In this document: positions 13,808-28,199 of the stretch, in pieces
Layout: every line of letters starts with the position of its first letter
How positions within the stretch are numbered: the stretch's first letter is position 1
Origin: a virus
DNA: 54,687 nt
IMG/VR virus record: IMGVR_UViG_3300030117_001005
Location: 1-54,687 of that record
Reading direction: 5' to 3' (one strand)
Translations under genes and position numbers: made by a program
The notes under the pieces: generated by a model
Databases searched by the model: none
The model's input: the letters and a program-made list of their open reading frames with translations, nothing else
What the model was told of the DNA's origin: nothing

Positions 13808-13972
13808 TCAAAGAGGTTTACCTGTTAAGATAACCCTCTCTATATCACACCTGCCTATACCTAAGTCTCGTAGCTCTCTGTCAGTCATCTTGTAAAGCTG
13901 CATACGTGCAATCTTACGTCTGGCTGACTCTGCTCTTGCTTCTACTAATCTATTGAAAAACCTTTTAAACAT
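13808..13972 (-). CDS. DUF1127-family small protein
   Basis: A 54-residue basic protein starting at ATG 13972, preceded by AGAGGA seven bases upstream. The C-terminal half KMTDRELRDLGIGRCDIERV is the signature of DUF1127, short Arg-rich proteins abundant in alphaproteobacteria and reported to affect RNA, phosphate and carbon metabolism there. The N-terminus MFKRFFNRLVEARAESARRK is an amphipathic basic helix. It sits alone in a 306-base gap with its own promoter-like sequence and a stem-loop that includes the ribosome binding site. This suggests a host-derived regulator under separate control. Confidence 0.8.
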   Translation of the reverse strand: MFKRFFNRLVEARAESARRKIARMQLYKMTDRELRDLGIGRCDIERVILTGKPL

Positions 13973-19519: not shown

Positions 19520-19774
19520 TTATTCCCAATCTCGTTTTCTGTCAGGATCTAGAACGTCTTGTTTACGTAAAAAACCTTCGAGGTACATAGATCTTTCCAT
19601 TCTGTCCAAAGATACCCAGTGTCCTGTAGATTCGTAGTAAGCTCTTCTAACATAGAACACGTCAGATCGGGGAATGTGTACCCTTTTTAACTTGTTCTCG
19701 TTTTTTTCAGCTAAAGCTTTGTAGAACTCTTTGAGTACTGAGTCAGACTCGAAGTACTTTACTCTTTTGTTCAT
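19520..19774 (-). CDS. First gene of the left minus-strand operon, unknown function
   Basis: An 84-residue charged protein (VHIPRSDVFYVRRAYYESTG; SLDRMERSMYLEGFLRKQDV). It is the promoter-proximal gene of the lysis/structural operon, with the promoter near 19961-19990. The C-terminal SLDRMERSMYLEGF pattern looks conserved, but I know no function. A small regulatory or structural role is possible. Confidence 0.6.
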   Translation of the reverse strand: MNKRVKYFESDSVLKEFYKALAEKNENKLKRVHIPRSDVFYVRRAYYESTGHWVSLDRMERSMYLEGFLRKQDVLDPDRKRDWE

Positions 19775-19960: not shown

Positions 19961-19990
19961 ATTATATACTATTAGTTATACACGCTTCAA
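19961..19990 (-). promoter_or_regulatory. Promoter of the left minus-strand operon
   Basis: Minus-strand TTGAAG (19990-19985) and TATAAT (19966-19961, full consensus) are spaced by 18 bases; a TATAACTA motif like those of the capsid and DUF1127 promoters lies between. Predicted start about 19954, at the edge of the inverted repeat, some 180 bases before the ATG at 19774. Confidence 0.6.
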
Positions 19991-20057
19991 GTTTAAAACA
20001 AGGACAATACAGGCAAAGTGACAAGATGTCACACCTTTCTCTTCATCATACTTAAAC

Positions 20058-20478
20058 ATATACCCTTTGACCTAGTAATAATCAGCAGCTTTCCCTGGGA
20101 ATCAAACAGGTAATACTTGTTGTTTTTCTTAAACAGTTGCATATCACTAGTTATACCCCCATTCAATTATTGTTCAACTGTAAACCACATTAATTTAAAA
20201 GTGGTTAACAGACTAAAAATACCCATATCTGTCATTGAGCATGTACACGTAACGTATACCCCCTACGTGGCGCATGCCCGACCCCTCTATATAGTTTAAT
20301 ATTGAACTATTTTTATCTCATATCGTTTAAAACTGAACAAAATCCAGGTGAAAACTAGTTTAACATTAAACTATTTATTTATCGTTATTCGTTTAGTATT
20401 AAACTTTTAGAAGCAAGCGCATTACAGCAAGTTTTATGCATACCCCTATCTTAAGCTTACACATTATATATATACCCC
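20058..20478. repeat. Dispersed TATACCCC motifs
   Basis: Copies: ATATACCC (20058-20065), TATACCCCC (20152-20160), TATACCCCC (20255-20263), CATACCCC (20439-20446) and TATACCCC (20471-20478). On the minus strand each reads GGGGTATA, so they point toward the late genes. They may be binding sites for a phage regulator or a phage-specific promoter element. Confidence 0.5.
20172..20404. promoter_or_regulatory. Array of 14-bp palindromic operator-like sites
   Basis: Sites: GTTCAACTGTAAAC (20172-20185), GTTTAATATTGAAC (20294-20307), GTTTAAAACTGAAC (20325-20338), GTTTAACATTAAAC (20358-20371) and GTTTAGTATTAAAC (20391-20404). They fit the near-palindrome GTTTAA-N2-TTRAAC. The last four are spaced by 31, 33 and 33 bp, close to three helical turns, placing them on one DNA face. 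This is the pattern of a cooperative repressor/activator array or origin iterons. Confidence 0.7.
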
Positions 20479-20691: not shown

Positions 20692-21303
20692 ATGTATAAA
20701 AGAGATACCAAAGCAATAATAGAAATATGTGAACAAAGACAATCAGTCTTACCAGTTGCATTATTTGTGCTTACAACTATTCAAGCAGGTTTAAGTACTT
20801 GCAAAAATCAAATAAAAGACTGCAATCAAGAGGGTTCAAACTCTAGATTTTTGTGGGGTAAAAAAGCCGAAGGATTAGAGTTTGTTAAAAAGCATGACGC
20901 TTTCCTATTCGGTAAAATCCAACACATTAAAGAAACGTTAGGTACTGAAAGTGTTGAAGCTTGCACCAAAGCAATAGAACTATTTTTACCAGTACCAAAT
21001 CTAGGTATGGTTAAATCAGCATTTGTTGCACAATGCTTAGGGTTTAACGTAGCTTGTATAGACAGCCACAATTTAAAAAGATTAGGTATGGCAGAAAGCA
21101 AGGTTAAACTTGGCAATGTTAAACCAGAAACCAAACGCAAAAAAATAGAAGCTTATGTAGCAATGACGCAAGAACAAGGTTCCGAATATTGGTGGAATAG
21201 TTGGTGCGATTATGTAGCAGGTAACCAAGCAAATAGATCCTTAGATAACGGGGATATAGTTTCTAGATATCATGTGGAATGTGTTGACCTAGTAAACGTG
21301 TAA
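20692..21303 (+). CDS. Conserved early phage protein with helix-hairpin-helix-like segment
   Basis: A 203-residue protein, first plus-strand gene after the control region, with GAAAGG upstream of the ATG. The segment IELFLPVPNLGMVKSAFVAQ followed by CIDSHNLKRLGMAESK looks like a helix-hairpin-helix plus a conserved D-x-H-N-x-K/R motif seen in uncharacterised marine phage proteins (recalled). DNA binding or a DNA-glycosylase-like fold is plausible; no catalytic claim is made. The C-terminus has WWNSWCDYVAG. Confidence 0.65.
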   Translation: MYKRDTKAIIEICEQRQSVLPVALFVLTTIQAGLSTCKNQIKDCNQEGSNSRFLWGKKAEGLEFVKKHDAFLFGKIQHIKETLGTESVEACTKAIELFLPVPNLGMVKSAFVAQCLGFNVACIDSHNLKRLGMAESKVKLGNVKPETKRKKIEAYVAMTQEQGSEYWWNSWCDYVAGNQANRSLDNGDIVSRYHVECVDLVNV

Positions 21304-27795: not shown

Positions 27796-27945
27796 ATGAG
27801 TGAGCAATACTGCACCACAAAAGGATTGGGGTGGGCATTTATTATCTGTTCGTTTTTAATCTTGGGTGTTCCTGTGCTGATGTGGTTAGCCTTGGAAGGG
27901 GCTGACTGGTATCAACGATTTGATTTAATGAACCCGATGTGGTGA
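27796..27945 (+). CDS. 49-residue membrane protein
   Basis: Starts immediately after the preceding stop. It has a polar N-terminus with Cys, a membrane helix (GWAFIICSFLILGVPVLMWL) and an acidic/aromatic tail (EGADWYQRFDLMNPMW). Three consecutive small membrane proteins here suggest an early envelope-directed function. Confidence 0.5.
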   Translation: MSEQYCTTKGLGWAFIICSFLILGVPVLMWLALEGADWYQRFDLMNPMW

Positions 27946-27950
27946 AGTCA

Positions 27951-28199
27951 ATGCAACCAAAGGGAGTACCTTGTCATATCCGTATCAAACATGCACCAAC
28001 AATAAAAAAACCAGGGAGGCAATGTAGATTATACGGAAAAACCTTTGACAGTATAGCTGAAGCTGCTAGATGTTTTAACATAAGTTATAGTTGGGCAGTG
28101 GAGCAAGTTAATAACGGATGGAATATGGAAGACTTCCCAAAGAAATCCAGAAGAAAGCTTTTAGAAAGGATTGATAATGAAAGCAGTAGTAAAGAATAA
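27951..28199 (+). CDS. Small DNA-binding-type protein (NUMOD1-like HTH)
   Basis: An 82-residue basic protein from ATG 27951 (GGTGAAG upstream). GKTFDSIAEAARCFNISYSW resembles the NUMOD1/AraC-like helix-turn-helix pattern of homing-endonuclease-associated DNA-binding domains. No nuclease domain is attached. It overlaps the primase-helicase start, so it could be a small regulator or a remnant. Confidence 0.55.
   Translation: MQPKGVPCHIRIKHAPTIKKPGRQCRLYGKTFDSIAEAARCFNISYSWAVEQVNNGWNMEDFPKKSRRKLLERIDNESSSKE

Follow-up and report, generated by a model that had tools for sequence, protein, structure and literature searches.

A phased array of putative host pyruvate-node operators in a phage early control region

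The stretch of viral DNA analyzed here, the window, comprises all 54,687 nucleotides of IMG/VR record IMGVR_UViG_3300030117_001005. Between the start of its leftward operon at 19774 and the start of the rightward early genes at 20692 lies an array (20294-20404) of four palindromes of the GTTTAA-N2-TTRAAC type. They start at 20294, 20325, 20358 and 20391, giving start-to-start distances of 31, 33 and 33 bp. The array is phased, it recurs in unrelated phages, and its motif and flanks agree with those of sites in the host group, the roseobacters. The best explanation, and on sequence grounds a reasonably probable one, is that the palindromes are four operators of a host pyruvate-node transcription factor that controls the phage early region. 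We infer that one host protein binds both the phage and the host sites and that this binding regulates early transcription.

The array and its surroundings

The four sites differ in quality. Site 1 (20292-20309, 14-bp core 20294-20307, TAGTTTAATATTGAACTA) is kept in relatives. Site 2 (20323-20340, core 20325-20338, TCGTTTAAAACTGAACAA) is the most degenerate of the four; its counterpart in CRP-9, L015 and L017 is a perfect palindrome. Site 3 (20356-20373, core 20358-20371, TAGTTTAACATTAAACTA) matches the 18-bp host consensus in full, and site 4 (20389-20406, core 20391-20404, TCGTTTAGTATTAAACTT) completes the array. The initial annotation counted five sites. The additional one (20172-20185, GTTCAACTGTAAAC), 122 bp further left than site 1, deviates from the motif at a near-invariant position, and only the nearest relatives retain it. 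It would be a weak site at best.

The consensus GTTYARNNYTRAAC, which was fitted to the window's own sites (the relatives are independent of the fit), has six matches in the window, four of them inside 111 bp. Under a second-order Markov model of the full window 0.16 such sites are expected, and in 400 trials of this model two sites less than 130 bp apart never occurred. For the intergenic region, a Markov model built on that AT-rich sequence itself predicts ~0.004 sites. The four-site array with its 31/33/33-bp spacing is thus confirmed, the strict motif being far above Markov expectation. The initial annotation had proposed to compare the motif with its chance frequency, and the outcome depends on stringency: the strict motif is enriched, whereas the annotation's own pattern with three mismatches allowed is not (190 seen versus 195 expected). 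The signal therefore resides in the strict motif.

A conserved non-coding block at 20201-20279 (GTGGTTAACAG...CTGTCAT...CGTATACCCCC...GTGGCGCATGCCC) is common to HMO-2011-type phages with and without the array, and may serve as a promoter or for packaging. A leftward sigma-70-like promoter (TTGAAG-N18-TATAAT, 19961-19990, minus strand), predicted by consensus match only, lies about 300 bp left of the array. Many relatives have leftward promoters ~230-440 bp left of the array that are strong by consensus match, at up to 12 of 12 positions. No rightward promoter was recognized by sequence consensus next to the array. The leftward operon begins with the gene of an 84-aa protein (19520-19774, minus strand), and the first rightward, early gene encodes a protein of 203 aa (20692-21303, plus strand). 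The early genes differ strongly among array phages. A small leftward frame of 37 aa (20029-20142) is found between the array and the 84-aa gene and has relatives in several array phages. In a set of 63 metagenomic contigs, breaks are concentrated immediately beyond the array in the direction of the early genes, as they would be at the border of a hypervariable region.

Conservation and phasing in other phages

Related phages have the array too, in 76 contigs, where it separates the first leftward gene from the early genes. Loss of the spacing in close relatives, which the initial annotation took as grounds for rejecting the array, was not observed; L012-L017, L079, CRP-9 and CRP-13 retain distances of 31, 31-33 and 32-33 bp. 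Between phages, the sites are 88% identical and spacers of equal length 65%. When 2.9 million viral contigs were scanned for pairs of sites separated by 29-35 bp, 100 stretches were found, most with three or more sites, although some of the contigs are related to one another and the array counts are not all independent. Neighbor distances in 60 non-redundant arrays of the window's phage group are 20-24 or 29-35 bp and never 25-28 bp. A second scan that permitted any distance of 20-50 bp found only 23, 28-34 and 42 bp. These spacing classes (about 22, 28-35 and 42 bp) fit two, three and four helical turns, so that the sites stand at integral turns and keep that arrangement in relatives. The distances are compatible with the proposed binding of dimers on one face of the DNA.

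The exact motif is nearly confined to the array in 16 array-bearing records, and the reversed pattern used as a control gave one match in 25 records. The array is also present in contigs that lack the related array region, including the large contigs G019-G021 and the 39-kb G023. Positions left free in the scan are informative. T at -2 occurs in 92% of the HMO-2011-like sites and 90% of the unrelated-phage sites; the centers are mostly pyrimidine-purine (TA, CA or CG), and the sequence outside is A-rich. Because the HMO-2011-like and the unrelated phage sites agree outside the search pattern, the full motif as read from these sequences is an 18-bp dyad, TAGTTTAA-YR-TTAAACTA, and a single DNA-binding protein probably serves all the array phages.

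Phages carry two to five sites. CRP-1 and CRP-2 are without this array though they infect the same strain, and the array is therefore not obligatory. Extending the search to the order around G238 added no pairs. An open literature search brought up no mention of the array.

Host sites in front of pyruvate-node genes

Among 385 Alphaproteobacteria genomes, six contain the 18-mer TAGTTTARYRYTAAACTA and none its control. In these six genomes the site is upstream of pdhA (three), an aceE-type E1 gene (one), or a nitroreductase-like gene followed by a MarR gene (two). One of these genomes comes from a family that 16S places in the roseobacters, at 95.4-95.7% to Sulfitobacter, Ruegeria and Tritonibacter. 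With one mismatch allowed, 100 of 150 genomes of this family have one to four sites, as against four genomes hit by the reversed control; no site was recognized at this threshold in 50 of the 150. Among 50 distinct host sites, 46 could be assigned to a gene: 23 precede pdhA, nine lpdA, nine maeB (malic enzyme), four the nitroreductase and one aceE, leaving four sites without assignment. Representative pdhA, maeB, lpdA and MarR genes were confirmed in Pfam; the nitroreductase has no Pfam match and is named from sequence only. Most host genes have one site each, and a database-wide scan of bacterial genomes for two perfect sites missed the host sites because they are mostly single.

The window's site 3 is a full match to the host dyad, and sites 1, 2 and 4 are variants of it. 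The agreement extends to flank positions -6 to -3, which no search had used: there the mean total variation between host and phage sites is ~0.10, compared to 0.35-0.43 for LacI-type sites. The host sites were read in roseobacter genomes, which may not include the window phage's own host. Of the possible binders listed in the initial annotation, it is the host factor to which the host sites and the flank agreement point.

We propose that the host regulator would bind as dimers, cooperatively and on one DNA face, to copies of TAGTTTAA-YR-TTAAACTA spaced by about three helical turns. Located where the leftward operon and the rightward early genes diverge, the bound array would control early transcription. 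The phage would thereby have gathered several phased copies of a pyruvate-node site of the kind found before pdhABC, lpdA and maeB, so that its early control region would probably be repressed or activated according to the central carbon status of the host.

Two host proteins are candidates for the regulator. One is the MarR protein adjoining the nitroreductase, which is present in 18 of 20 site-bearing genomes but also in 13 of 18 site-free ones. The other is GapR/CceR, though its reconstructed targets differ. In L330, L331 and L329 a Tat-exported nitroreductase-like gene has two sites of the phage motif upstream, separated by 21-24 bp; in L330 and L331 a MarR gene follows it, and autoregulation there is possible. 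An open literature search found neither a report of this roseobacter motif nor a name for the regulator of the pyruvate-node regulon.

Alternative explanations

The phage itself could encode the binder, a repressor or activator of the early/late switch that profile searches missed, with the array as its operators. The likeness of the array to host sites would in that case reflect a phage protein taken over from the host regulator or imitating it. The array does sit in a divergent control region, and dyads of 14-18 bp at two or three helical turns resemble temperate-phage operators in size and spacing. A small DNA-binding protein could also hide among the early genes, which are small and mostly without a family match. 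Yet Pfam and PHROG scans of the early genes gave no candidate binder, searches of the phages with HTH_3 and LacI gave no match above the cut-off, and an association analysis over whole genomes found no gene that is common to all array phages and none that tracks the array. The 84-aa gene is the array's most constant neighbor (76 of 111 loci). Its family is, however, universal in these phages, array-free relatives included, and it was not found near the arrays of unrelated phages. The 84-aa protein has no sequence match, and its model (mean pLDDT 84) has no fold match. It was rejected as the binder, near-identical recognition-like segments adjoining different motifs in L018 (TGTGATCACA) and L101 (GTTTAA). 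The two phage proteins put forward by the initial annotation fare no better: the one at 27951 (27939-28199) resembles NUMOD1 only weakly, and the DUF1127-like protein (13808-13972) has a counterpart in array-free phages. No phage-encoded DNA-binding repressor thus emerged, and host metabolic genes have this extended motif in front of them. A phage-encoded regulator is unlikely, though by no means negligible.

The host-site evidence serves equally a decoy, in which the array titrates the host regulator and shifts host pdh and malic-enzyme expression rather than controlling the phage. Few copies per genome are multiplied by many genomes per infected cell, and each array offers multiple high-quality sites where a host promoter usually has one. 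A decoy has no need of phased spacing, however, nor of a fixed position, while the array is always in the same control region, between divergent genes in several groups; we regard this function as quite improbable.

The initial annotation also considered origin iterons, which would be bound by a replication initiator. The AT-rich divergent region does coincide with the minimum of cumulative GC skew, though the skew also tracks gene orientation. A link to the Cobavirus-type polymerase and primase was perfect in a first set of phages. It was broken by G005 and G008, which combine the array with HMO-2011-type replication genes, and by the cobaviruses ICBM2, CRP-4, CRP-5 and SIO1, which are without the array despite a related polymerase and primase. 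Many relatives replicate without the array. Because the array accompanies different replication modules, is absent from cobaviruses having the window's module and is present in unrelated phages, iterons are disfavored and this function is very doubtful.

A packaging or genome-end signal is highly improbable. Of the 63 array contigs, 18 have their end no more than 261 bp from the array on its early side, the array adjoins terminase-like genes (named by eye) in some unrelated phages, and the terminal repeat of ICBM2 sits in the corresponding region. But the contig ends, though enriched, are scattered rather than fixed, which is what the border of a hypervariable region would produce, and a physical genome end at the array was rejected; several full-length contigs span the region, and array-free relatives exist.

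Operators of a sugar-type host regulator of the LacI family, like those beside GTTTAACGTTAAAC pairs in enterobacteria and enterococci, share the 14-bp core and have a similar spacing of 29-35 bp, but are strongly disfavored by flank comparison and scarcely credible, since the bacterial pairs have T at -2 in ~30% and T-rich flanks as against 90-92% and A-rich flanks in phages, and since phage centers are TA, CA, CG and others, not CG alone. Such pairs, 29-35 bp apart and next to LacI-type regulators and sugar transporters, were seen in L190-L215, which comprise enterobacteria, enterococci and some marine proteobacteria.

A second operator at the same position

In CRP-603, CRP-1, CRP-345 and L018 the array is replaced at the same place by another motif, TTGTGATCACAA, and in CRP-13 and L035-L037 both motifs are present. 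Phased TTGTGATCACAA copies are found at or beside the array position in L010 (3105-3222), L018 (5617-5704), G002, G003, G004, G006, CRP-13 (L281), CRP-1 (L325) and CRP-345 (L324), with pair distances mostly of 32-33 or 44-46 bp. In roseobacters, TTGTGATCACAA occurs upstream of a GntR/FCD regulator gene (two genomes), a succinyl-CoA-synthetase-type ligase and fumarase. It was found in 19 of 61 genomes and its reversed control in none, an enrichment that is less certain because the reversed control contains CTAG, which is rare in bacteria; several of the host matches fall inside predicted frames. In R. sphaeroides, TCA operons including that of succinyl-CoA synthetase are predicted targets of the GntR protein RSP_0981 (PMC4344238), whose counterpart is likely the TTGTGATCACAA regulator, judging from the genes that carry the motif. 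TTGTGATCACAA differs from the array motif in the window.

More broadly, several unrelated marine phage lineages may plug early control into host central-carbon regulators through phased arrays, exchanging or combining TAGTTTAA-YR-TTAAACTA and TTGTGATCACAA operators at the same position, a generalization that we offer tentatively, at somewhat under an even chance. If this two-operator reading is true, the timing of infection would be gated by the pyruvate or TCA status of the host. Control of the array by a host regulator would give marine phages that infect roseobacters a direct molecular link from host central carbon metabolism to phage gene control. It is testable with CRP-9, CRP-13 and their host strain, all of which have been isolated in culture. 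The sites also point to a roseobacter pyruvate-node regulon of pdhA, lpdA and maeB.

Comparison with known systems

GapR/CceR (RSP_1663) is a global carbon regulator of Rhodobacteraceae that belongs to the LacI family (PMC4052901, PMC4344238). It resembles the putative regulator of the array-type host sites in its link to central carbon metabolism; malic enzyme and PdhAB are among its predicted targets in R. sphaeroides (PMC4344238), and a cceR mutant of Paracoccus has reduced malic enzyme (PMC11323563). Its reconstructed regulon, with a 20-bp palindrome, consists of zwf, edd, fba, gap, eno, pykA, pckA and mdh (PMC4052901), whereas genes of that regulon were recognized at none of the 46 assigned host sites, a comparison made by target genes.

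The roseobacter pdhA, lpdA and maeB operators share with the array the 18-bp dyad, the center preference and the A-rich flanks. They are mostly single, whereas the phages have two to five phased copies in front of phage genes. The operator sets of temperate phages of the lambda/434 type are similar in having several dyads, cooperative spacing and a location in a divergent control region, but they bind a phage-encoded repressor, and HTH_3 and LacI searches found none in the array phages. Phage control regions also use sites for host factors, for example LexA and IHF, and the array is like these in that a phage would be using the sites of a host transcription factor. Unlike LexA- or IHF-type sites, those of the array are multi-copy, phased, putatively recognized by a central-carbon regulator and shared by unrelated marine phages.
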